Shown piece by piece: positions 4,543 through 33,489 of a DNA stretch of 33,489 nt. The stretch's first letter is position 1, and each line of letters starts with the position of its first letter. The stretch comes from Saccoglossus kowalevskii. Lineage: Eukaryota; Hemichordata; Enteropneusta; Harrimaniidae. The position numbers were made by a program, and so were the translations under genes. The stretch is taken from contig NW_003132850.1 in the NCBI RefSeq assembly GCF_000003605.2, forward strand, positions 361,605 to 395,093, in the 5' to 3' direction. The notes under the pieces were generated by a model. That model saw only the letters and a program-made list of their open reading frames with translations, did not search any database and was not told where the DNA came from.

Positions 4543-5697
4543 TTAGTCCCCAGGGTAGATTATCCGTATAGCCGTTTCTGTGGATTCTTCGTCCTCGGCT
4601 ATTATATTCTCGGGGATAATTCGGGAACTGTTCTCCACACCTATGAGCCATTGTATTATTCGCCCGCTAGTTTCTTCGTCAATATCTGAGTCGTCGTTTC
4701 CCTCATTGCCTTGACCATTCCGGTCTTGTGCCTCCCGCCTCGGAAGTCCGTTTTCGTGGTTCGAAGATTTGGGAGAGCTCGCCTCAGAATTGCTATTTCC
4801 ACCGTTTTCGTTGGATGTGTGTGACTTAGTCACTGACAGAGTTCCCGTCGATTTTGCTAAAGTAGCCTTCAAAGCGTCATGTGGAAGGCTTTTGCGTCGA
4901 GTCGTCGCCGAGTGTACCCTGCCAGGTAGCGGTGTCGACCCTCGCCTGTTTAAAAAATTAGGATCAGATTTTGACTGGGTATAATTGTAGCTTGTCTGTG
5001 GACGTTTTACAGGCGAACTGAGTCTTTCAAAAACTGTGAGAGTTTTGTCTACCGCGATACTTGAATCCCCGGATCGTGGCCGAATCGGCAGTTTCACCCT
5101 TTCACTCGTACTAGGAGCGCTATGCGTGCTTAAGGACGACATACTCGGCACTGCTCGAAGTCTGTCTTGTCCGTTTTTTACTTTCACTATCAATGCATTT
5201 TCGCCGGTTGGTGACTTTTTTCTCGTCACGTATCTCGTCGTTTTGGGGCGCACTCCAACTATGCCTCCTGTCAAACCAGACGCCTTGCCAGCCAACGGAG
5301 GTAGACTTTGCTTCTTATCAAAAACGTCGGGAGCACTGCATCGCCTTTTTCTCATCGCCTCAAAGTTGGTTAACAAACCCGGTGTTATATCTCGCTTCAT
5401 GTCGTCCATTTTTCGCAGTTGAGAATGCCCTCCACTGAAGTTTTTCAGAAACGAATCATTAGTCCGAGGTGACCCGAACGGCCGGGCTGAGAACGGCCGA
5501 TGCAGATTCAAGCGGTGTACCTGTTTCTCTAACATGTCCAAAGTCTCGCTTCCAACTAATGAGCTGCGTCGGTGGTTGCTGGGTTTTATAGCGACATCCT
5601 GAGTGACTGTGCCACTATTCATAGCACAACGATAAGACGATACCACATTTAGTAGTTGCCTACGGCTGCATCCTGAGCAACGTTGGTATGCTGGCAT
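4543..5697 (-). CDS. Unrecognised basic, Ser/Arg-rich protein, single long exon
   Basis: An uninterrupted frame encodes about 384 residues from an ATG at 5697 to a TAA at 4543. The frame stays open a little further upstream to a GTG at 5781, but an in-frame TAA lies just beyond that, so 5697 is the first usable ATG. A second ATG at 5622 has a better Kozak context (G at -3) and would give about 359 residues. The protein is rich in Ser, Arg, Lys, Thr and Pro, with recurring short basic patches such as RPFSARPF, RPKTTRYVTRKK and SPVKRPQTS, and it looks largely disordered. A low-complexity Asn/Ser/Glu stretch leads to an acidic C-terminal tail containing a hydrophobic helix-like segment, SGRIIQWLIGVENS. 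There is no signal peptide, membrane segment or enzyme motif. Local GC content is clearly above the flanks, which supports real coding. I do not recognise the family. It could be complete or the main exon of a longer gene. Confidence 0.7.
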   Translation of the reverse strand: MPAYQRCSGCSRRQLLNVVSSYRCAMNSGTVTQDVAIKPSNHRRSSLVGSETLDMLEKQVHRLNLHRPFSARPFGSPRTNDSFLKNFSGGHSQLRKMDDMKRDITPGLLTNFEAMRKRRCSAPDVFDKKQSLPPLAGKASGLTGGIVGVRPKTTRYVTRKKSPTGENALIVKVKNGQDRLRAVPSMSSLSTHSAPSTSERVKLPIRPRSGDSSIAVDKTLTVFERLSSPVKRPQTSYNYTQSKSDPNFLNRRGSTPLPGRVHSATTRRKSLPHDALKATLAKSTGTLSVTKSHTSNENGGNSNSEASSPKSSNHENGLPRREAQDRNGQGNEGNDDSDIDEETSGRIIQWLIGVENSSRIIPENIIAEDEESTETAIRIIYPGD

Positions 5698-7599
5698 CGA
5701 AATAGCTTGACCGCCACTAACGCTGGCCCGCAGTGCGGCAATACCAGCCCCGGATTGCCAAGTTAAAAATCCAGGTGCCACCTCTCGTCCGATATCTTAT
5801 AGGATTGAGCACGGACTGCTCTTTTGGACGTATGATCGATACCGAGTAGTGAAAAAAACGAATAAAAACAAAGCGGAGACTGTATGAATGATGTTCATGC
5901 TTTAGAGATCACTGTTCACTACTTCGGAACTTGTCACAATCCGAGCACTATATCAGAACAGATCGCTTTACATGACAATGGATATCCCCGTGACAGCACT
6001 CTGTTTTAGAACGCGGATCTCTCACTCGCTGAAAATGGTACAGCAAACACGGCCAAGCTTAAAATAAGCGCACAAACCCGTTATGTGCATTGTACTGAGA
6101 AAGTATTGTATTCGTTTCTGTGTTTTTGCACACAAGCGAATGCAAAAATACAATGCTGACGCAAAGGTCCAATGGGCGGTTGTTGGCATACCGTTCTCTA
6201 CACGCCCCCACTCTGTTGTAACGAGTTCGTTTTAAACTTTTCCCCCCTCTTGATATGTGATGGATATCCCCAGGCTGGAAACAGAAAGAAAGAAAAGAGT
6301 TTTAAATATCATTGGTGCCTGGTTACAAAGCAATTCTAAAAACGGCTAAACATATCCACCACGCTTTGTGCATTGTGTCCAAAGTTTGTTCTGTGCAGTT
6401 CTGTAAGAACGTGATTTGACATAGGGCAAACGCGGACACAAACAACGTATGTTCACCGATTTGTTCCCTTTTGACAAATATGTATTATTAAACAACTCAT
6501 TCTGCATATCGTGTCCACAATCCACAATCATATGTAGTTATAACAGTACTCATCACGAATTGATGTTACATATATGTGTATGCGTCGCAACGATTATTAC
6601 TAGCGGGGTGTGAAAGGAGAATTGTTTTATTGGGGGATGAAACATCAATCTTAGATTTATCGAATGATAAAGAAATAATCTCACGTATTGTGCGAAAAGC
6701 TGGGTGCGTTCAATTTACTCACCACCCAACAGATGATTACCCCCCCCCCCCTCTGGCCCAATACACAGACAAATGCAATATACGGATTTTAATTTGACAG
6801 TAAAGTGATAGTTACAAACAAGGTTTAAATTTCATATTGTGTTGTACCGGTGATTACTATATTGTTTCTTGCCGTGAAATCGATATATTTTTCAAAACAC
6901 ATGTTTACAAAACACGACAATACATTGGTATAGATCTAGGTAATCTAGACCAAAATAAATGTGACCTAAATTCGTCAGTAAACTTGATAAACATCAACAT
7001 ACCGTGTTACATAACAGAGAAACATTAATCTAATAACAAATAAGGTTTCGTCATTTTTTTTTGGACAGAACTGATCCTTTGTGGCATTTATAACTATTTG
7101 TGTATCTACTGCATTAAGCTGCCTAATGTGTCCCTTCTATTCTATCCATAGTTATGATGAGAAACTTGAGAAAGAGTCAATTTACTTAAAGTGTCATGCC
7201 AGGTTCACAGTTGGCAGCATGGAAATAGCGTTAAGTTTAGTAACCCAGGATCTGACGGATTAACAAAGTTTAGCAATTAAATTACAAACACGAACGTAAA
7301 TTTTATAGACAGTCGTTTCTTCATGATGTAAAATATAATACAGTATCATTCTGGTGACGAAGATGCATCAGCGTACATTGTATCGCTTTATTTGTGCTCT
7401 ACCACTCTCTCACCGATAACAAAATGTGGTAGTTATACCGGGTAGTTATAAAACCCAGTCAACATTACTTTATTACGCTTCGAGGCTTTGTGAATTTATA
7501 TAACTAGAGTCATAAATTACTGGATGAAATTGTCAATAAATCTTGTCCCGACAATCACACTAGACAGTCAAGAATAATGGGCCGAGTATCCTCTCGGTG

Positions 7600-7771: not shown

Positions 7772-7942
7772 TTATAATACCTATAACACTTGCATCAAAT
7801 ATATTGACGTAGTTATTGTGAAATAGGTTGGGTTGGAAATACAACCACCTGTTGTTCATGACCTGATCAATTCAGCGTCTGTAATGCGAGTTAGAGCAAT
7901 GCATCATGGGATAGATCATAAGAGATAGTTGCCATTATCTGA

Positions 7943-8346
7943 AATTGCATCATGGGAATTCTCTGTCTACGTTGCTGACAATGTCAATTTTCTTGGAGAG
8001 ATTTTAATTTGCGTTTATTATATTATTTGTATTTCCTCTGCCGTGTTTAGGCTAATGCAGTGTTGACCCGTTCGACGGTATCATTCTTTGATTTCGACCA
8101 ATGTAGTACTGTAGTCTATACTTCGAGTCGGTGTCAATATCTTTAATTGCATCGCGGGACTCCGCTGTCCACTTTGTTGACATTGTCAATTTTTTAGAGA
8201 TATTTTAATCTGTGTCGTAATATATTATTTGTTTTTCCTGTGTCGTGTTTAAGCTAATGCAGTGTTGACCCGTTCGACGGTATCCTTCTTTGATTTCGAC
8301 CAATGTAGTACTGTAGTGCATCCCGTGAGTCGATGTGCACTGTTAA
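7943..8346. repeat. Tandem duplication with a 202-bp period
   Basis: The segment beginning AATTGCATCATGGG at 7943 recurs at 8145, and TGTTGACCCGTTCGACGG at 8061 recurs at 8263. Both pairs are exactly 202 bases apart. The right parts of the two copies are nearly identical, including ATTTCGACCAATGTAGTACTG, and the left parts differ more. Another short duplicate (CTGTTAAAAAT at 8340 and 8381) follows directly. No open frame spans it. Confidence 0.85.
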
Positions 8347-18875: not shown

Positions 18876-19654
18876 NNNNNNNNNNNNNNNNNNNNNNNNN
18901 NNNNNNNNNNNNNNNNNNNNNNNNNNNNNNNNNNNNNNNNNNNNNNNNNNNNNNNNNNNNNNNNNNNNNNNNNNNNNNNNNNNNNNNNNNNNNNNNNNNN
19001 NNNNNNNNNNNNNNNNNNNNNNNNNNNNNNNNNNNNNNNNNNNNNNNNNNNNNNNNNNNNNNNNNNNNNNNNNNNNNNNNNNNNNNNNNNNNNNNNNNNN
19101 NNNNNNNNNNNNNNNNNNNNNNNNNNNNNNNNNNNNNNNNNNNNNNNNNNNNNNNNNNNNNNNNNNNNNNNNNNNNNNNNNNNNNNNNNNNNNNNNNNNN
19201 NNNNNNNNNNNNNNNNNNNNNNNNNNNNNNNNNNNNNNNNNNNNNNNNNNNNNNNNNNNNNNNNNNNNNNNNNNNNNNNNNNNNNNNNNNNNNNNNNNNN
19301 NNNNNNNNNNNNNNNNNNNNNNNNNNNNNNNNNNNNNNNNNNNNNNNNNNNNNNNNNNNNNNNNNNNNNNNNNNNNNNNNNNNNNNNNNNNNNNNNNNNN
19401 NNNNNNNNNNNNNNNNNNNNNNNNNNNNNNNNNNNNNNNNNNNNNNNNNNNNNNNNNNNNNNNNNNNNNNNNNNNNNNNNNNNNNNNNNNNNNNNNNNNN
19501 NNNNNNNNNNNNNNNNNNNNNNNNNNNNNNNNNNNNNNNNNNNNNNNNNNNNNNNNNNNNNNNNNNNNNNNNNNNNNNNNNNNNNNNNNNNNNNNNNNNN
19601 NNNNNNNNNNNNNNNNNNNNNNNNNNNNNNNNNNNNNNNNNNNNNNNNNNNNNN
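18876..19654. other. Assembly gap (779 N)
   Basis: The run of N is flanked by repeat units of the same family, so the real length and sequence are unknown. Confidence 1.
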
Positions 19655-23769: not shown

Positions 23770-23819
23770 CTACTTTAATTCCTCTTCATATTTGTCATCA
23801 TCTGTCACTGTCCAGCAAT
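23770..23819 (-). CDS. gtsf1: Candidate last exon of the GTSF1-like gene (reading frame ambiguous)
   Basis: A good acceptor (TTTCTATTGCAG) precedes a short open stretch. Joined directly to exon 9 in phase 0 it encodes only IAGQ and stops at 23805. In another frame it encodes CWTVTDDDKYEEELK and stops at 23770, an acidic end that fits the preceding peptide better. That frame would require an undetected exon of suitable length in the 3.9-kb intron. I cannot choose between these. No AATAAA on the minus strand lies close downstream; the first TTTATT I noticed on the plus strand is near 21551. Confidence 0.4.
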
Positions 23820-26800
23820 CTGCAATAGAAACAGATGAACAATAAATATTGATAACAATTATGTACACATACTTTATCAAAAGAATATTATTGAAATAAA
23901 TTATAATTAGTAAAATAAAATTATTTATAAATTCATATAAACAAAATGCAAACAACAAAATAGTAAACAAGTTGAAAAGTCATTCTGGGTGTGGGCATCT
24001 TGACACGAGGACCAAATATCATTTTGACGTGCTAACCCACAACAGACCTACAGGAAATGGTTACCCAGAATGCAAAGTAACTACCTACTTTGCACACTAT
24101 GGATAAACATTGACAGCAGTTTACTCTTTTCATTGAAATAAGAAGAGTCAAAAAGCATCTTTCGGTGGAACATTATTTTATGAGAACAAAAAAAATGAAT
24201 ATGATGGGGGAAAAAGAATAAATAACGTTAAGTATGTATACATTTTTATAAACAGCTATATAAAACCAAAAGTAATTACAACGTAAAATTATTTAAAAAA
24301 GTTAAATTTCATTAGCAATGTCAAGGTTTTAAAAAGATGGGAAATAAAATATGATTTTGGAAATGAAGCAAATATTGTTAAATTTTGTCAGATTTACCTC
24401 TCCATATGTGGTAAATGAATTCTCAAAGGACAGAAATGCAAAATCAGCTGTTCTATCTTTATTTAAGGAAACTTTCACTTCAAGAGTAGAAGTAAATTTA
24501 TATAATCAAAAAATAAGGTGATAATTTCTGTATTGCTCTATTTGAGACACATGTGCTCACATTAAAATCCTGTTTCATATTAACATTTCAAGTTTGATGT
24601 CAAATACCACCAACTTGTTGCCGGTTAACCCTTTCACCACCAGACTTTCTCGCCAAAATTTGTCTGCACATTTTTACCTCTTACATTCTTCAATATTTCT
24701 GGAAATGATCCCTAATTTTGGAGCCAACAGTCAAAATTTGAGCCAATTTTCAGTTTTGACTCAAAAAATGTGGCTATTTTTGTTCCAATCTTCTGAATAC
24801 AAGTGCAGACTATAAATGGGACTATTTTGTGAATTTGTGATGAAAAGAGGGAACTGGTGGTGAAAAGGTTAATGCAGTTTAATTAGGTTTATTGTGGATG
24901 TACGTCTCATAGAGCAAATACTGTATTGAATATATTACCAGTGACTGAGAATTTCATCCGATCTGGCTGAAACTGACTGTGATTTGGGTTGGCATAGTTA
25001 CGACAAAATGCCAGTACACAAATCGACAGCAGCATTGCCATAGGTCAACACCACCATGATAAATACTATTACATCACTGTTAATACACGAGGGAATTTGT
25101 TTTAACCCAGGAGAGAAATCTGACATGACACTTCATACCATAGACATGAGAGTTTAAATCTTTTCAATGTAGACTGGTGAGAGTATCCAGGTTTTGTCAA
25201 GTCCACTGTAGGCAAGAGCAATTAATGTCATGTTTATGTCAAACTTTTAACACAAAATACAGAGTTAGACAATGCCCTAAGCATACATAATTTTAAACTT
25301 GTACGGTAAGCAAAATTGCATATAAGACTCTCTGTTATACTATAAAAGATGAACTATACACTATTCAATTGTGATATTGCAGTGCCAAATATATAAAATT
25401 AATTTATTTCTGTAAAAGATAATAGTTGTACTTAATATATTGTTGGTTTTTGTCTGTGTAATGTAGAATATGTTTTATCTTTAACAGGGAGTACCCTCAG
25501 ATAGTACTTCAAAAGCAATAAGTATTACATGTATATCCTGTATAGCCATTTTGTCTCTCCTTTCAAATCTTTGAAGAATAAGTACTTCCTAGGTTAGTTG
25601 TTCTTAGCGTGCTCCCGAAGCACAATTCAAACTAGATTTAGTTCAGTGAAGTCTATGAACTGATCATAGCTAAGAGTATGTTGAAATTGAAAGGGCTTTC
25701 AACTGCAAGTTTCAGACAATGCAACTTTTAAACTATTAAACAAGATAATTCAAACATTATGAGTATGTAAAACTTTGGTAGAATGTTAAATATTACTGTG
25801 TATGGTGGAATATGTCAGCAGGTCATTTAAATAATAGTGACTATATGGTTTATAGTTATATTACTTACGTAAGTGATGACAACTTTTCAATGAGGCGGTC
25901 TTTCTTGGAAACTTTGTTGACCTGTGATAAAAGGAAACAACCAATAACTGAATGTGATAAAAGGAAACAACCAATAACTGAATGTTATAAAAGGAATCAA
26001 CCAATAACTGAATGTTATAAAAGGAATCAACCAATAACTGAATGTTATAAAAGGAATCAACCAATAACTAAATGTTATAAAAGGAATCAACCAATAACTG
26101 AATGTGATAAAAGGAATCAACCAATAACTGAATGTGATAAAAGGAAACAACCAATAACTGAATGTGATAAAAGGAATCAACCAATAACTGAATGTTATAA
26201 AAGGAATCAACCAATAACTGAATGTGATAAAAGAAATCAACCAATAACTGAATGTGATAAAAGGAATCAACCAATAACTGAATGTGATAAAAGGAATCAA
26301 CCAATAACTGAATGTGATAAAAGGAATCAACCAATAACTGAATGTGATAAAAGGAATCAACCAATAACTGAATGTGATAAAAGGAAACAACCAATAACTG
26401 AATGTGATAAAAGGAATCAACCAATAACTGAATGTGATAAAAGGAATCAACCAATAACTGAATGTTATAAAATGAATCAACCAATAACTGAATGTGATAA
26501 AAGGAATCAACCAATAACTGAATGTTATAAAAGGAATCAACCAATAACTGATTGTTATAAAAGGAATCAACCAATAACTGATTGTTATAAAAGGAATCAA
26601 CCAATAACTGATTGTTATAAAAGGAATCAACCAATAACTGAATTTGTTACCGTACTTGACCGCGTCAGCGCCCATGCCCGGGCAAGCGCCCACCCCCCAC
26701 TTTTGCAAAATTTTTATATTTGGGGTCACATTCGACAAAGCGCCCACCCCTTCAAAATGCAACTAATTTAAAACTTGGTCTTGCATAACGAATCCAGGTA

Positions 26801-29800
26801 ATCGTTTTTATATGATACAGCGTGGATATCGACCGCTGTGAACATGTTGTGAAGGCGTAGAACACGGTAACCATGCGTAAACTACGCTTCGACAATGACC
26901 TGTTAATACAAGTAAAGTGTGGTAAATATTTCATGCCATATTCAGTTTACCTCTCAAAAATGGCTACCGTAGTTACTAGTTTTTTGAAAAAAACCATGGC
27001 GTTTATTCGCTAAAATCAATTCGTACAGATCGTACTTCGACAATTCACTTCCGCATTGTGTTACCGGAAAGTCTTCGGAAATTTCCGAAGAATGGCGTCA
27101 ATACAACACAGCATTCTGATTGGTTAATAACCAACTTGACCCATTAGGTCAAAGGACGCTGCTGCAGGTAAAATCTGCAAATGCATCATGGCGAAAAGCG
27201 ATTTTCATCGAGAGTTTGCGTACGATCCAACACCTTCGTCAGTGGAGATAATATGACAATTTTGACTTCGACTGTGATCCAACAGACTCAAACGTTTTTA
27301 ATTTCGTAAATTCTGGTGGTACGTAATCAATATTGTAATAAAATATGCATATTTTTTGTGATCATTTCTGTTTCTTTATTGTGAAAATCAATGACGACTT
27401 AACTAATTTTGTAATTTGATTTTCCCTCAAAGACGTAATCTGTCACTTGATGAATAACAGTTTTCATTTGCACTATTTTTGGAGGGGGGCGCTCGGCGCT
27501 GGGCGCTAACGGGGTCGAGTACGGTAGTTAACAATGATTCTATTGATTCTTTTGAATACTCTTCAAAAGTTTTGAATTTTTAAATTGTTAACCATGTGTT
27601 TGCCATGGATCAGTGTCAGAGAAGCTAAGCTGATCGAAAATTCACAGGTACAAATTTCTTGAGTATTGTAATTTATGTTCATTTTGTGGAAGGAAAGTAG
27701 TCCACAGTAAGACAAAATAACATTTCACATTGAGTAGTAAGTATTTATATTACCTCCTCTTCATTAAGATCTCCACCTTCACTTTTTTTTTGTTCTAATA
27801 AAGTAATCTGCAAAGTTTACAAAACAATAGAAATAGTCAAATTACGGTATTTTTAAACACCAAACAGATGTATTATATAACAAGCTAAATCAAAGAAATA
27901 TTAAAATGAAATATGATAGGTAACAATTATTCCCAACTAAGAATAGAGCACGCAAGGATAATCTGGCATACCTGTTTTAGCTTCTTATTTAGCTTCCGTA
28001 CTTTTTTCTTTTTCGTTGCTTCCTGAAAACACAAGTATAGAGATGTTATACACACGAGCAAACAATAACACACCGTACAAGTCAGGTTGTGCCCAACACT
28101 TGCCAACAAAGAATCTAGTCAATTCCCACCAATACTCCATTTTCTCTATTAAAAGCACATTTAAACTCAAAATTGTATTTGGTGTATATACTGAAACATT
28201 TAAGCGCGGTAGTCGTCGCGACATTTGTGTTGATAAACATTGATTTTCCCACAACCCAATGCGTTCTTCAAATGGAAATCACAAGTATGAGGTTTGACCT
28301 GGGCGCGACTTGCACTGATTACCGACGAGGACTCCTTCGATACTTCCCAATCACATGAAATTGCCTAATTAAAGCTTGGAAATGTCTCAGTTCGTACTCG
28401 TTGATCTGCGCAACAGTCAAAGTCGCCATCTTTGTTTATATGAGACCCATATATCTCGCACATGCGCAGCGCGACGACTACCACGCTTTAAACATCTCTG
28501 TAGATTTCGCAAACACTTAAGAGTAATAAATACAGTATTGGAAGTGCAAATAAATGTAAAAATATGAATTTAGGCATTTACGCAAATGCAAGCACTACTA
28601 ACAGAGCAAATAGAGTATAGTGACATAGCATTTAGCTATTTCACCACAGGATCCCGCTTTTCATCACAAATTCACAAAACAGTCACATCCTTCGGAAGCT
28701 TGGAACAAAAATAACCAAGTTGCCTTTAGCGAAAACTGAAAATTGACTTCAATTGGTCTGTTGGGTCCAAAAATCAGGGTTCATTTCTTTAACAAGGACT
28801 TTTTTAAACGTTATTACCCACAACAAGCAATAGACTAGTAAATTAAACTATTTCAGCAATAAAAATAATTTACCTTTTCAGCTTCTTTTCTTTCTTGCAA
28901 CTGAACATCGGATAGTACATCTGCAAGATAGTTTACAATTACAAATAGTATCCCTTAACGAGTTGAATTCAGTAAGAACAAGATTGACCGTAGTCACAAT
29001 TAAACTCAACGAGGAGATACAGAAAGCAGACAGCGCTGTTATAACGTACCGGTACATACTGCCAATTACCAACTCTAAAAATGTAACCACATAATTATTT
29101 GCCAGATTTTTAAAATTTGTCTTCTAGAATTCCAACTGATCACAGAATTGTGTTTTTTTTTTAGTTTTTCATAATTTTGTCGGTCTTACATTTTTCTGCA
29201 ATAGAAATTTCAACTACAAAATTGATAAACTTCTTTTGAAAAATGAATAGAAATAAAACAATTTGATAACATTCAAGTCCTCCGGCCCATATACAACATA
29301 CATGTATCTTTGTACTCATCAACTACTGACATTTTTCTTTAGGTTCAAGTATTGTGGCAGATTTAAGCTATAATCTACAGCATTAGTGCAGACTGTGACA
29401 CATGTAAAATAAAACGAACACTGACTTACCAGTGGGTAGTGCTGAATTCACTGAAATATTCTGAGTACATGTCTCAGTCATACTAAGTGGCTCTACATAG
29501 GGCTGTACTTGCCGAACACCAATAGACTGTTGTACTCCTATGGCTTCATTAGTTGCAAATTTCTTTCCTCCAATGTGACTGATATTGCCACCTGGTCTCT
29601 TTAACAAGTCCATGATACCCCGGCCTCGACCTCTTCCCAACCCTGCACTCACAAACACCGATGTTCCATCTGGAGTTGATGAGGACCGCCGTGGCACAAC
29701 CTCTGTTGATCTATTAGAAATAGCCATGGCGTAGTTCATAGGTGCTGTCTGAGTATCTGTATTTGCCACATAATGCATTGGTGTCAAAGCAAGAGTGGTG

Positions 29801-32800
29801 GCAACTGGCAAATCCTCTGTGACCTGTGACATCCTCGGAGGAGGTGCCGACAAAGAATTGGAGCTTTTTTGAAGTTCTTCAAGTAAAGCATGCGTCGCAG
29901 CAGTTTTAGCAACTTGCCCCAAAACACTATTTGTTGCTGGTTTTTTATCAAGAGTATATAAACTTGCAATGTTATACGATGCCTTCAAGAACATGTTCTC
30001 CGTGGGAACAATACCATTCTTCTCATCATTATCGTCACCAAATATATTCGCAGCAATTTTATCAGCACCTAGAATATTGATAATAATAAATTAAGCACAT
30101 AATGCACACTAAAAACACCTGCTTTGAGTGACCTTGTGAACAAGCAAACGACCTGACATCAAATTAGCTATATCAGCAGAGCTACTAGACTTGCATACCG
30201 ACTTATTTATTTTTGGGTGTTTTTTCAATAAAATAAAAGATCATGAGAGTGTGTAAAGGGTGAAAGTATTAAAGTATGACTCATTTTGACCATACACTCT
30301 CTGTCATAATATATATAAGCATATGTGCTACTAATTTTAATAACGACAGCAAATGACACAATTTTTTTACCCTTAGCTCCAAAAGACTGCCAAACTGACA
30401 ACACACGAAAAATGTAAACAAGTGCATCCTACTTGCACTGTTCTTCTAAGTTTGAAAATCAGTACTGTGAGAAATTCCACGCTGTGTCACACACCTGTTT
30501 TCTCTACTTGTTTTTGTTGTTGCAGCACCATTGGAGTTTCCTTTGGAAGTCTCAGTGGTTTATCATTTTGAGGCCTGTCTTCTTCTGGTTGGACTGGCCT
30601 TCAAAATCAGTAACCAAATATTTATCTTTTGTTAAGATTGGAATATATTGAATATTTATCAAACTATCGTAAAACTTGTTGAAAAAGCGGCATGGAATTT
30701 TAGCGAATTGTGGTAAAATGACGTAATAGCGAAATGATGATTTAGCTAATCTCTCTTGTCATTGTTGATTTCCGGTTTTCACAATACTTGCCTGTCGCTT
30801 GCCAAAACAAATGTGCAGTTATCACCTCCATAAAAACAAAGCAAAACTGTCAAGTGTAATTAGGAAGCGACTCAAATTTGGCCATTTTGAATTTATAATA
30901 AAGTCATTAGCGACATCTTGAATTAGCGAATTAGTTTTCTCGCTAAAAAGACATGCTTGCGAAACAGACATGTTTTACAGTATACAGAAAGAGCAGGAAT
31001 TGAAATTCCTTGAATTCTCCACATGGAACATCAACTTTCTGATTCAGTGAAAATCTTGAAACTGGTTTAAGTGCAAAAAATAAACATTATGAAAAAGAAG
31101 ATAATCAATTCGCCACACACATTTAAAAAATTCTGCAATATTAATTATATAAATCACTCACAGCCCTTGAGCCCGCCTCCTGGCTTCTTCTATTAAGTTA
31201 TTGTGATACCTTTTACGCTCTGCGTTAGTCATCCAATCACTGAAGTAAGACGATACAAAACATGTAAATATACAACTATAAATGCAAGTGAAAAAAGTGG
31301 CTTTACACAGGATTTGAACCATGGACCTCAAGATTACATACATATTGAGAAAATTAATGTAAAGACAGGTATTCAAATCCATAAAGTACAATATGTGAAT
31401 TTTGAACAGCAGTCTCTCTGATACGAGAAGACAGCGTGCAGGTTATAACATAGCCCTGGAAATGCAATCAAATTCTCTCGTTTTGGCGATGAGGTAACAA
31501 ATTCTCAGCAGGCATACAGATGACATCCAGAAGTAGTTTACACATGAATATCAGTACTGTGCATTCTACACAGACAGTATACTGTATTTAAAACAGGTAA
31601 AAATCTAAGCATCATATCAAAAGACCATCAAATCATCTCCATGTTTGCTGCTTCACAAAGAAATACAAGTTAATACTTACACACTCATAGTAGATGGTTG
31701 GACATTATTTGATCCGTACATGTGTGTCTGGTTTTCATCTGTAAAATAGATGTCTAGTATTGGCTGACTATTTTTTTGCTTTTCATTTACACATGTACAT
31801 ACAGTACTTTCATTTAAAAGCCATGAATGAGACATTTGTCTCCTCATGCAAGAGTGCTTTCTGGTCATGGCTTAAAAGATTACATAAAAATATAAGCATC
31901 ATATTTTGATCGATAAGTAAAGCATGCACTGATCAGTCTATTACCATAATTATTCATATGATTGATCCAGTGCAGTATAAATACACTGTTTTTGTGCACT
32001 TCTAATGGAGCAAATAAAGTGATCAGAAATGATAAAATTCATCAACTTAATTACTGGTCCTGGTAAATTACAGAGGTGTTTCTATGGTCAAAAGTAGTAA
32101 TATTTTAAATGATCCAGCATACAATTCTGTTTATATGCATTGTTATTGGAGATACACTTCTAATAGAGCAAATACAGCAGCAATGCTTTGTGTTCAAATT
32201 TGGGGTCATCAAATAACGTTCATCTTTGCTCAAACCAATTGAAAGAGTTACAGTTTGTAGACTTTCTTGAATAGTAACTTCATTGAAGTTGTGTTAATGG
32301 CGGATACATGCAGATCAACGCAACCTACCTAAGTCCCAGTTTTCTTCTGGCTCTGGCATTTCCCACTCAGGGTTATGGTACGGCGGTACATCTGTATTGC
32401 CTTTGAATAGACTACCACTACTGCCAATACCTTGCTGGTGGATTATATCATTCTCTATCACAGCTTTATCCGGACAGTTACAAATATGATGCCGGAAGAG
32501 ATGGTGCTCTATAATGTGACGAGCATTGAATGGACACGTGTCCATTCTTTTAGTAGGATGGTTCTGAGATAAAGAGTCATGCAGTACATAATGAGTATGT
32601 AATTACACACAGGCATGGCATTGAAACGATAAGTGACAACATAGAATAAACGCATTATTACATCATATAAATCAAAGAAAGCTTAGAAAAGAACTCCTGT
32701 GTGCTGGGAGAACAGTACAGCTCAAAACTTGTTTACCAAATTGTTAGCTGTGCATTAACGTGATGTTAATTTTGCGATTTTGCGTTAACAGTCTCAATGC

Positions 32801-33007
32801 ACGTTAGCACATAGGTAACGTGCCAGGGTGTCAACATACTCCAGTGAAAATAAAGTATTTTACAGTACTTACTTTTTTACATTTCATAATATGATAAGGA
32901 AAGCGTTTAGATGCGACCCGATGGATGGGGTCGTATGGACAGACTAAAAACTCCTCTGGATCTATATCGGTCCTTGAAGCAATTCGGTGATAATTTCCAG
33001 AAGACAT
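23805..33007 (-). CDS. gtsf1: GTSF1-like protein: two CHHC zinc fingers plus long RG-containing tail (multi-exon)
   Basis: Nine coding exons on the minus strand join in phase: 33007-32873, 32563-32329, 31738-31681, 31239-31162, 30598-30495, 30068-29430, 28920-28874, 28022-27972 and 27807-27754, giving 467 residues. A tenth exon from 23819 is likely. Finger 1 is C23-x5-H29-x9-H39-x3-C43 and finger 2 is C55-x5-H61-x9-H71-x3-C75, the exact spacing of the CHHC (U11-48K type) finger. Two tandem fingers followed by a Trp-containing acidic segment (W112, W121) is the GTSF1/Asterix layout. From family knowledge, these proteins bind PIWI proteins in germ cells and support piRNA-guided silencing or slicing, with the fingers contacting RNA. 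Known vertebrate and fly members are about 150-170 residues, so the remaining 340 residues are unusual. The tail carries GLGRGRGRG, a possible arginine-methylation and Tudor-binding motif, and a charged helical end. The fingers are very secure; the exact 3' end is not. Confidence 0.88.
24625..24872. mobile_element. piggyBac-like MITE, complete
   Basis: TTAA-flanked inverted ends read TTAACCCTTTCACCACCAG (left) and, as the complement, TTAACCTTTTCACCACCAG (right). The 248-bp length, TTAA target and CC start are typical of piggyBac-derived MITEs. It lies in the large last intron of the GTSF1-like gene. No coding capacity. Confidence 0.85.
25921..26640. repeat. 24-copy, 30-bp minisatellite
   Basis: The unit AATGTGATAAAAGGAATCAA followed by CCAATAACTG repeats 24 times with no insertion or deletion. 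Variation is confined to a few sites, mainly TGTGATAA versus TGTTATAA and GGAAAC versus GGAATC. Because 30 is divisible by three, several frames on both strands stay open and mimic proteins of 190-320 residues. It lies in an intron of the GTSF1-like gene, so I treat these frames as non-coding. Confidence 0.97.
26648..27526. mobile_element. 0.88-kb inverted-repeat DNA element with TA borders
   Basis: The left end TACCGTACTTGACCGCGTCA (then GCGCCCA) and the complement of the right end, TACCGTACTCGACCCCGTTA (then GCGCCCA), match at all but three positions. TA at each edge suggests a Tc1/mariner-type target. The ends are GC-rich (repeated GCGCCCA motifs) in an AT-rich intron. It begins only a few bases after the minisatellite ends. 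A perfect 18-bp palindrome lies inside at 27073-27090. Confidence 0.8.
27073..27090. repeat. Perfect 18-bp palindrome inside the 0.88-kb element
   Basis: CTTCGGAAATTTCCGAAG equals its complement. It is followed by an inverted CCAAT box (GATTGGTTAATAACCAAC), which is itself partly palindromic. Confidence 0.85.
27754..27807 (-). CDS. gtsf1: GTSF1-like exon 9
   Basis: The acceptor AAACTTTGCAG and donor GTAATA bound 18 codons in phase 0: ITLLEQKKSEGGDLNEEE. The charge switches from basic to acidic. If the donor is not used, translation would stop three codons later (E-V-I-stop), giving an alternative end of the protein. Confidence 0.65.
27972..28022 (-). CDS. gtsf1: GTSF1-like exon 8 (lysine-rich)
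   Basis: The acceptor GTGTTTTCAG and donor GTATGC bound 17 codons in phase 0. The peptide EATKKKKVRKLNKKLKQ is strongly basic and could act as a nuclear localisation or RNA-contacting segment. That is inference from composition. Confidence 0.7.
28199..28492. mobile_element. MITE with GGTAGTCGTCGCG ends
   Basis: The left end TTTAAGCGCGGTAGTCGTCG and the complement of the right end, TTTAAAGCGTGGTAGTCGTC, are inverted repeats of about 23 bases. It lies in the intron between exons 7 and 8 of the GTSF1-like gene. The terminal block relates it to the elements at 14852, 15674 and 16474. Confidence 0.82.
28632..28790. mobile_element. Decayed, truncated relative of the piggyBac-like MITE
   Basis: TTTCACCACAGG, CTTTTCATCACAAATTCACA, TTGGAACAAAAATA, AACTGAAAATTG and GGGTCCAAAAATCAGGG follow the same order as the complement of 24625-24872. 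The far terminus is missing. It sits in the intron between exons 7 and 8. Confidence 0.75.
28874..28920 (-). CDS. gtsf1: GTSF1-like exon 7
   Basis: The acceptor is CTATCTTGCAG and the donor GTAAAT. The 47 bases restore phase 0 and encode DVLSDVQLQERKEAEK (the D is completed by exon 6), an acidic/basic helical segment. The following exon continues the charged pattern, which supports both. Confidence 0.7.
29430..30068 (-). CDS. gtsf1: GTSF1-like exon 6 (largest exon, RG motif)
   Basis: This exon of 639 bases runs from a TATTCTAG acceptor to a consensus GTAAGT donor and enters and leaves in phase 1. It encodes about 213 residues. They begin ADKIAANIFGDDND, pass through an Ala/Leu-rich helix-like part (VAKTAATHALLEELQ), then a Ser/Thr/Pro-rich stretch, then GLGRGRGRGIMDLLKRPGG, and end NSALPTG. 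The GRGRGRG run resembles sites of symmetric arginine dimethylation bound by Tudor proteins in the piRNA pathway. That role is inferred from the motif only. Confidence 0.82.
30495..30598 (-). CDS. gtsf1: GTSF1-like exon 5 (Pro/Gln-rich linker)
   Basis: The exon is bounded by an AG acceptor with a weak pyrimidine tract and a GTGTGT donor. It has 34 codons plus one base at each end, in phase with its neighbours. The peptide is proline- and glutamine-rich (PVQPEEDRPQND, then LQQQKQVEKT) and probably an unstructured linker. The weak acceptor makes the right boundary slightly uncertain. Confidence 0.65.
30667..30980. mobile_element. ~314-bp inverted-repeat element
   Basis: The left edge (CGTAAAAC, TGT, GC, CATG, TTTTAGCGAA in order) matches the complement of the right edge (CTGTAAAACATGTCTG ... 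GCATGTC ... TTTTAGCGAG) in imperfect form. TA dinucleotides border both sides. It lies in the intron between exons 4 and 5. Confidence 0.6.
31162..31239 (-). CDS. gtsf1: GTSF1-like exon 4 (charged helix)
   Basis: The acceptor is CGTCTTACTTCAG and the donor GTGAGT, with phases matching exons 3 and 5. It encodes DWMTNAERKRYHNN followed by LIEEARRRAQG, which should form a charged amphipathic helix or short coiled coil. Confidence 0.72.
31305..31345 (-). other. tRNA-like 3' half (B-box relic)
   Basis: On the minus strand, CTTGAGGTCCATGGTTCAAATCC contains an exact RNA polymerase III B box (GGTTCAAATCC) and resembles the variable and T arms of a tRNA. I could not build the D arm or acceptor stem, so it is not a tRNA gene. 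A tRNA-derived SINE fragment is the likeliest explanation. Confidence 0.3.
31681..31738 (-). CDS. gtsf1: GTSF1-like exon 3
   Basis: The acceptor is CTATTTTACAG and the donor GTAAGT. The exon enters in phase 1 and leaves in phase 2, encoding a short polar segment (ENQTHMYGSNNVQPSTMS). The phase agreement with both neighbours is the main support, because the sequence itself has no recognisable domain. Confidence 0.7.
31950..32180. repeat. Two diverged direct copies with an AGCAAATA motif
   Basis: TGATCCAGTGCAG ... GTGCACTTCTAATGGAGCAAATAAAG and TGATCCAGCATAC ... ATACACTTCTAATAGAGCAAATACAG follow each other about 150 bases apart in the intron between exons 2 and 3. Confidence 0.55.
32329..32563 (-). 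CDS. gtsf1: GTSF1-like exon 2 (CHHC finger 2 and Trp-containing segment)
   Basis: A TTTATCTCAG acceptor precedes 78 codons plus one base, and the donor is GTAGGT. It starts NHPTKRMDTCPFNARH, closely matching the family's linker and second finger, and ends with an acidic segment containing two tryptophans (PEWEMPEPEENWDL). In GTSF1 relatives, C-terminal tryptophans in acidic context mediate PIWI binding, so the same role is inferred here. Confidence 0.9.
32841..32867 (-). repeat. End of the short dispersed element next to a splice donor
   Basis: CCAGTGAAAATAAAGTATTTTACAGTA is the complement of the 18336 repeat start. On the minus strand the intron begins GTAAG and passes directly into TACTGTAAAATAC, so the repeat starts at about intron base 6. 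Confidence 0.7.
32873..33007 (-). CDS. gtsf1: GTSF1-like exon 1 (start codon and CHHC finger 1)
   Basis: This exon has 45 codons from ATG to a consensus GTAAGT donor (phase 0). An in-frame TGA 27 bases before the ATG (33032-33034) supports this start unless an upstream splice joins in between. It contains the complete first finger, with CPYDPIHR at the first Cys/His pair and FPYHIMKC at the second. The downstream intron begins almost at once with the end of a dispersed repeat (32841-32867). Confidence 0.9.
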
Positions 33008-33138
33008 TTTGATACAAACACGTTTTGCTTTTCACCAAAGGACATAAACTTTGTCTGTTCCTGAAGAAATTATTTTGATGCAGACAAACCTTGCTTTTCA
33101 ACTAAAAGCATAAACCTTGTTGGTTCCTACAGAAATAA
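33007..33138. repeat. 66-bp tandem duplication between the two minus-strand genes
   Basis: Two diverged copies (33007-33072 and 33073-33138) share the core TTGCTTTTCA, then CATAAAC and GTTCCT, in the same order. On the minus strand the copies carry acceptor-like sequences, TTTATTTCTGTAG/GAACC and ATTTCTTCAG/GAACA. The second junction also resembles the start of GTSF1-like exon 1 (ATGTCTTCTGGAA), so a third partial copy may run into the coding exon. Confidence 0.7.
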
Positions 33139-33143
33139 AAATA

Positions 33144-33489
33144 TCAAAGAAAGCTCTGAATTTCTGAATCTGTATCGTCGTCATTTGCAACTATGAAGTC
33201 ATCTGGTATTTTGTGCCGTAGTTCACCTGTTTTGTCGTCCAATACAAGTTCATCATCATACACAACACGTTTTTTTATAGTTTGTTTTTCGGGGAAACTC
33301 ACAAGTGTTGATTGTTCTATGTCGCATACACTTTCTTGTGCCATTTCTTTGGTGACATCGACGTTTTGTTGCGTACTCGCTTGGTCCATATGTTCAGGTT
33401 CCTGCTTTTCTGCGTTGACAGTTGTGGCGGATGTCGATGGTTCCGAATCACAAACATTGTCTTGCAAAAACTGTATCACATCTTCGACG
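33144..33489 (-). CDS. C-terminal part of an unrecognised protein (cut by window edge)
   Basis: The frame is open from the window edge to a TGA at 33144, giving about 114 residues with the N-terminus outside the window. The first half is Glu/Gln/Ser/Thr-rich and looks disordered. The second half begins TIKKRVVYDDELVLDD, continues KTGELRHKIPDDFIVAND and ends DDDTDSEIQSFL. I do not recognise the family. It lies on the same strand as the GTSF1-like gene, with only 136 bases between its stop and the next start codon and no AATAAA or ATTAAA between them. It could be the last exon of a separate gene or, less likely, an alternative upstream exon of the same locus. Confidence 0.6.
   Translation of the reverse strand, partial: VEDVIQFLQDNVCDSEPSTSATTVNAEKQEPEHMDQASTQQNVDVTKEMAQESVCDIEQSTLVSFPEKQTIKKRVVYDDELVLDDKTGELRHKIPDDFIVANDDDTDSEIQSFL

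Follow-up and report, generated by a model that had tools for sequence, protein, structure and literature searches.

A GTSF1-like gene of Saccoglossus kowalevskii with a long predicted tail whose end resembles the C-terminus of eIF2A and PYM

Gene model and coding evidence

The stretch of DNA analyzed here (the window) comprises 33,489 nucleotides of the genome of the hemichordate Saccoglossus kowalevskii (RefSeq assembly GCF_000003605.2, contig NW_003132850.1, positions 361,605 to 395,093 of the forward strand) and carries on its minus strand a GTSF1-like gene, the predicted product of which joins a GTSF1/Asterix module to a long tail ending in a stretch that resembles the C-terminus of eIF2A and PYM. 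The gene has 11 coding exons (Table 1), all of its introns are of the GT-AG type, and the phases agree at all ten junctions. The joined reading frame of 1476 nt, including the stop, encodes 491 residues (55,071 Da), and an in-frame stop lies just 5' of the ATG. A sequence-only reading of the same DNA had described a GTSF1/Asterix-type PIWI cofactor with a long extra tail, encoded by phase-consistent exons between 23805 and 33007. This description is confirmed by the phase-consistent frame and by the match to mouse GTSF1 given below, and the upper limit of the span coincides with exon 1, but the exons number 11 rather than nine, the stop lies a few bases below the lower limit, and the tail, put at about 340 residues beyond the tryptophan region, runs for 369 residues after W121-D122.

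Table 1. Coordinates (in the window) of the exons of the GTSF1-like gene and of features in its predicted product
Feature	Position	Strand	Residues	Remarks
Exon 1	32873..33007	-	1-45	ATG start, first CHHC finger
Exon 2	32329..32563	-	46-123	second CHHC finger and aromatic segment
Exon 3	31681..31738	-	124-142	basis: phase, coding score
Exon 4	31162..31239	-	143-168	short segment rich in Arg/Glu; helix judged by inspection only
Exon 5	30495..30598	-	169-203	basis: phase, coding score
Exon 6	29430..30068	-	204-416	linker
Exon 7	28874..28920	-	417-432	basis: phase, coding score
Exon 8	27972..28022	-	433-449	basic first half of eIF2A/PYM-like element
Exon 9	27754..27807	-	450-467	first presumed helix ends here, then turn
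Exon 10	25869..25921	-	468-484	second presumed helix, K470 opposite eIF2A K567
Exon 11	23798..23819	-	remainder of 485 to 491	stop TGA at 23798-23800
CHHC zinc finger 1	32879..32941	-	23-43	CPYDPIHRVASKRFPYHIMKC; pattern, PDB alignment, Pfam zf-U11-48K
CHHC zinc finger 2	32474..32536	-	55-75	CPFNARHIIEHHLFRHHICNC; pattern, PDB alignment
W112-x8-W121-D122	32333..32365	-		by direct reading
GRGRGRG	29617..29637	-	348-354	RG at 349, 351, 353; then IMDLLKR
eIF2A/PYM-like element	23810..28007	-	438-488	over exons 8-11; alignment, profile, shuffles

Splice sites were ranked with a rough matrix against a background of the 595 GT and 473 AG sites of the gene. By this measure, all ten donors fall within the top 0.2-8.1% of the GTs, and six of the ten acceptors fall within the top 0.2-3.0% of the AGs. 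Coding composition was scored with each exon excluded from training, a 417-codon open reading frame (ORF) elsewhere in the window and an ORF upstream of the gene being also counted as coding, and each exon was compared in its predicted frame with 2000 intron pieces of equal length. Each of exons 1-9 was equaled by at most 3.7% of these pieces (the fraction being 0.021, 0.001, and 0.000 for exons 3, 4, and 5, respectively), and exon 6 lies inside a stop-free stretch of 235 codons. The predicted frame also outscored the other two sense frames in nine of the 11 exons, the exceptions being exons 8 and 11. Several observations count against parts of this model: exons 5, 6, 7, and 9 have mediocre acceptors (top 11-21% of the 473 AGs), exons 10 and 11 carry no coding signal of their own relative to intron pieces (9.8 and 36.7% of which score as well), and the best antisense frame outscores the predicted one in exons 1, 10, and 11. 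It is very probable that tail exons 3-9 are genuine coding exons; for exons 10-11, support comes chiefly from their splice sites and from the eIF2A alignment running through both. The phases, the splice sites, and the coding composition of the genomic sequence support the view that the extra length forms a single coding unit.

A reading of exon 11 in the frame ending ...CWTVTDDDKYEEELK was rejected; the frame ending ...LTLLDSDR is preferred because it is the one joined by the exon 10 donor, and in it the end of eIF2A is matched too. The basic-to-acidic end reported earlier does not survive this choice, the C-terminus being strongly basic and then mixed; the very acidic DCWTVTDDDKYEEELK occurs only in the other frame of exon 11, to which the exon 10 donor does not lead. 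Exons 3-5 total 240 nt and could be skipped in frame, the end of exon 2 and the start of exon 6 both being phase 1; therefore, isoforms may exist.

The predicted protein, with 491 residues and 55 kDa, is about three times the usual length in the family. In an excerpt of a review, all Asterix/GTSF1 homologues are described as <20 kDa (PMC9539491), in line with the earlier view that the known vertebrate and fly members stop soon after the tryptophan region, this limit being a reported generality for GTSF1 rather than a defining feature, and Paramecium Gtsf1 is given as 18 kDa in an extract of the work on that protein (PMC11724296). Among the openly licensed papers listed, no title or opening abstract describes a long-tailed or eIF2A-like GTSF1, although this does not prove that none exists. 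The long-tailed GTSF1 gene is real, insofar as the genomic sequence can tell, and it is unusual.

Repeats and a neighboring ORF adjoin the gene. A minisatellite of 24 copies of 30 bp (25923-26643; 97% match) starts two bases 5' of exon 10 (25921); its unit resembles the acceptor tract of that exon, providing repeated look-alike 3' splice sites. In the frame of exon 10, a TGA is present in 20 of the 24 units, so that splicing to most of the acceptors upstream would cut the C-terminal element short. The TGA is absent in the other four units, two of which are those nearest the exon. At the 5' end of the gene, a 66-bp tandem duplication (32999-33130; 71% identical) extends over the leader, and on the minus strand an acceptor-like TTTCTGTAG or TTTCTTCAG precedes each copy; these may be splice sites used in cis or in trans. 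Further upstream is the end of a minus-strand ORF (33144-33488; 114 residues to the window edge), which has an acidic end, DDDTDSEIQSFL, and no Pfam match; its stop precedes the ATG of the GTSF1-like gene by only 136 bases, suggesting tight packing or an operon-like pair.

The GTSF1/Asterix module

The N-terminal part of the protein is organized as in GTSF1/Asterix, with tandem CHHC fingers of exact spacing, and by direct reading the W-x8-W-D that follows them may be shared as well. Both fingers fit C-x5-H-x9-H-x3-C exactly, as had been claimed from the letters alone, and they are the sole instances of this pattern in the six frames of the window. The best PDB match is mouse GTSF1 (6x46; E 3.4e-25, residues 14-124), a second GTSF1 is matched at E 1.8e-8 (9nhb), and the sole further PDB match at E <=1 is a chance one (0.65). 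Pfam zf-U11-48K (PF05253) matches two stretches, with E 2.5e-9 for the protein. Together, these matches leave the assignment of the N-terminus to GTSF1/Asterix well supported. An identity as U11-48K or TRM13, families that presumably have a single CHHC finger, is not favored, as the finger pair matches GTSF1 structures. Comparison at the sequence level covered 6x46 and 9nhb; fly Asterix, Bombyx Gtsf1 and Gtsf1L, and Paramecium Gtsf1 were compared via papers. When the N-terminal 123 residues were run against viral and genome contig collections (a scan limited to this part of the protein), 4 and 16 pattern matches, respectively, were obtained, with no relative confirmed among them, which was expected because this is an animal gene.

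The aromatic segment allows two readings. Read directly, its spacing is that of W98 and W107 with the following D in mouse GTSF1, leaving mouse W112 without a counterpart, whereas the phmmer alignment to 6x46 instead pairs W112 of the hemichordate protein with mouse W107 and places W121 in a gap. The tryptophan equivalence with mouse GTSF1 is therefore tentative. In the mouse protein, joint mutation of W98, W107, and W112 weakens MIWI binding >60-fold, according to a section of the published study (PMC9385479). Compared with mouse GTSF1, the hemichordate protein lacks, under the direct reading, the third tryptophan, and it has 369 residues after the segment.

The linker and the eIF2A/PYM-like C-terminal element

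Between the module and the C-terminal element lies a linker of ~300 residues, which is probably disordered. Residues 120-416 gave no Pfam match at E <=5, and residues 124-346 gave no PDB match at E <=10; over the C-terminus, Pfam returned matches below the cut-off only, and no tail family reached it. Of the earlier proposal of a Tudor- or RNA-binding tail, the first half was rejected, a Tudor domain within the tail having no match in Pfam or PDB, and the second appears to fare better, as the last 51 aligned residues resemble the end of eIF2A/PYM. The GRGRGRG run is present as described and is a possible dimethyl-arginine/Tudor docking site; it would be at most a target for a Tudor domain. It may resemble Ago3-type N-termini. 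A relationship of the run to solved PIWI N-termini or Tudor ligands was also considered but was rejected, with no such PDB match at E <=10 in a search covering chains of at least 20 residues.

The C-terminal element aligns without a gap to the final 51 residues of the human eIF2A sequence (residues 535-585; letters from PDB 8dys, numbering from the 585-residue protein), with 17 identical and 31 positive positions. It stops three residues before the protein end and is thus placed at the extreme C-terminus, as in eIF2A and PYM. The alignment score was reached by none of 20,000 whole shuffles, none of 20,000 shuffles by 15-residue blocks, and one of 20,000 by 8-residue blocks; in a first run with 5000 shuffles per partner, the respective score was reached by 0 for eIF2A, 0 for PYM1, 1 for Caprin-1, and 17 for Caprin-2. 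The tail keeps 13 of the 14 hydrophobic positions of eIF2A, the next-best offset giving 7, and 0 of 200,000 random placements did as well, a null that ignores helical periodicity and hence overstates the match. K567, the eIF2A residue opposite K470, is presented in a portion of the eIF2A study as the best-conserved lysine in this region, the mutation of which abolishes binding of mRNA carrying an internal ribosome entry site (PMC6208778). The element presumably forms two helices. The resemblance to the C domain of eIF2A (human residues 502-585, PDB 8dys) consists in the gapless C-terminal match, the hydrophobic pattern, and the K567 position. Unlike eIF2A, the GTSF1-like protein has no WD domain that could be found. 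By sequence resemblance, it may bind RNA.

A profile of four sequences (eIF2A, PYM1, Caprin-1, and Caprin-2; E for 177,635 sequences) gave the isolated tail 19.4 bits, E 0.01 (18.8 bits with a MAFFT alignment), a score reached by 0 of 20,000 shuffles (maximum 17.0); among 1117 pieces from the six frames of the window, the highest score was 5.9. The hhalign probability was 94% in a single comparison. The tail-eIF2A pair, at 17.9-18.2 bits, is comparable with the Caprin-eIF2A pairs (18.3-21.1 bits), and eIF2A is the best partner of the tail among the four. A PDB search with the profile, the four families being realigned, returned seven sequences at E <=10, namely an eIF2A chain, two Caprin-2 chains, an unrelated tau construct (15.7 bits), two designed-coil sequences, and one other (12.8 bits). 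The seeds eIF2A and Caprin-2 were the only ones above 15.7 bits, and the only ones to score more than the isolated tail. This run used the HMMER defaults, under which biased sequences may be filtered out, whereas filtering was off when the tail was scored; the comparison is a guide and not a matched control.

Other results weigh against kinship with eIF2A/PYM, leaving modest statistical support when composition is taken into account. On the whole protein, the profile gave 12.7 bits (E 1.2), and the best domain, at 14.4 bits (E 0.36), is exceeded by the tau construct. Composition bias accounts for ~12 bits of the profile score. Of the four profile sequences, only eIF2A and Caprin-2 (and not PYM1 and Caprin-1) were sourced from PDB, and a profile from these two alone gave 13.7 bits, E 0.54 (shuffle maximum 11.7). 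Composition-adjusted BLASTP of the tail yielded a nonsignificant E of 13, and phmmer with the tail found nothing in PDB at E <=10. In leave-one-out runs, known members scored 39.0-58.5 bits versus 13.4-20.5 for the tail, and the tail against Caprin-2 alone gave 5.9-7.4 bits. Furthermore, the resemblance was first spotted by inspection of the C-terminal 75 residues, which is equivalent to a whole-proteome search, and the shuffle estimates of ~4e-5 to 4e-4 are for that reason insufficient. Taking both sides into account, we consider it likely that the tail is kin to, or a close mimic of, the eIF2A/PYM element, and homology rather than convergence may underlie the resemblance. A related motif occurs in the Caprins: an eIF2A query against PDB matched Caprin-2 in 8k9c (E 0.018), and an N-terminal motif of Caprin-1/-2 has KxRNxxKK...G..L...Q in common with eIF2A. 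Unlike the tail, this motif is not C-terminal and lacks a lysine at the K567 position, and its similarity to the tail is weaker.

Elsewhere in the window, the 417-codon open frame (4543-5796, minus strand) is Ser/Arg-rich, has no Pfam match, and is probably part of another gene. A run of N at 18876-19654 marks an assembly gap or a masked stretch, a tandem unit of 202 bp is present in 1.9 copies at 7936-8317 (86% match), and Rfam gave no match in the window at gathering thresholds.

Proposed role and alternatives

GTSF1 makes PIWI slicing efficient. Given what is observed, namely the reading frame, the GTSF1 module, a tail of coding composition up to and including exon 9, and the match to the eIF2A pattern, we regard it as rather probable that the protein combines a GTSF1 PIWI cofactor, an RG-containing linker, and an eIF2A/PYM-like C-terminal element tethering mRNA or the 40S subunit. 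Human PYM provides an analogy: in the part of the published account that concerns it, an eIF2A-like C-terminus sits on a Y14-Mago binding module, and the protein associates with 40S in human cells (PMC4072592). The hemichordate protein would likewise join an eIF2A-like end to a different module that binds a ribonucleoprotein (RNP), and it differs from PYM in that this partner is a PIWI cofactor and not a Y14-Mago binding module. The most likely mechanism would be tethering. The N-terminal 123 residues would bind a PIWI protein and RNA and accelerate target cleavage, as GTSF1 proteins do, while the C-terminal hairpin would hold either the 40S subunit or structured mRNA. Tudor-domain nuage scaffolds could provide a docking site for the RG run, and the long linker would let the GTSF1 module reach complexes of PIWI with PIWI-interacting RNA (piRNA). 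The outcome would be preferential slicing of mRNAs that the translation machinery has engaged or is just releasing.

Published work on the relatives speaks in part against a ribosomal role, at least in the sections that touch on this point: Drosophila PYM, which has a similar end, does not bind ribosomes (PMC4072592), the C domain of eIF2A binds mRNA while eIF2A itself does not contact the small subunit (PMC6208778), and invertebrates are said to show no ribosome-guided piRNA production (PMC9114089). For these three reasons, the model is on safer ground with a tether to structured mRNA than with one to the 40S subunit.

The last 51 aligned residues might instead be an ordinary Lys/Glu-rich helical hairpin without kinship to eIF2A/PYM, in which case the tail would be generic disorder plus helix, perhaps serving self-association or weak RNA binding. 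The BLASTP and phmmer results for the tail, the share of composition bias in the profile score, the best Pfam matches of the tail remaining below the cut-off, and the weak score against Caprin-2 would all fit such a hairpin. We nevertheless think it unlikely, as the order-dependent shuffles reached the score in only 0, 0, and 1 cases per 20,000, the hydrophobic register has one clear best offset with 13 of 14 positions, the K567 position is kept, the location is C-terminal as in eIF2A, and PDB scores above that of the isolated tail came, under default filters, from the own seeds of the profile only.

Another explanation, which appears doubtful to us, is that the tail acts mainly via Tudor proteins, in that extended Tudor domains in nuage scaffolds would receive the methylated GRGRGRG run and the W-D pair, leaving a secondary part to the C-terminal helices. 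BmGtsf1L binds the extended Tudor domain of Vreteno by W99-D100, as stated in an excerpt of the report on that protein (PMC10711660), and the present protein has W121-D122 as well as three RG dipeptides. However, a single RG cluster in 491 residues is weak evidence, the run matched no PIWI or Tudor-bound peptide in the PDB search described above, and the W-D pair is also found in short GTSF proteins and leaves the long tail unexplained. Finally, two transcription units or isoforms, in which exons 1-2 or 1-5 would yield a short GTSF1 and exons 6-11 would encode a protein of their own, are quite improbable. In their favor, the exon 2 frame does stop four codons beyond residue 123 in intron 2 (read-through of donor 2 giving 127 residues), intron 5 contains AATAAA at 30211 and ATTAAA at 30341 (with others in introns 9 and 10), Met codons occur within exon 6, and the four mediocre acceptors would be compatible with such a split. 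Against them, each of exons 3, 4, and 5 looks coding in the joined frame, introns 1-4 contain no AATAAA or ATTAAA, and the phases agree throughout.

Returning to a GTSF1 cofactor with an RNA- or 40S-tethering end, a more far-reaching suggestion, which we make tentatively, is that in this lineage GTSF1 has acquired by fusion, in the manner of PYM, an eIF2A-like end that would bind RNA or 40S and thereby direct piRNA-guided cleavage at transposon mRNAs that are being translated or are bound to ribosomes. If true, this would link transposon silencing to translation and would extend to the piRNA pathway the principle seen in PYM, where an eIF2A-like end is placed on another RNP module. The protein would also offer a natural test case, in which removal of the 50-residue end should separate catalysis from target access, and it would bear on the question of whether invertebrates couple ribosomes to piRNA action.

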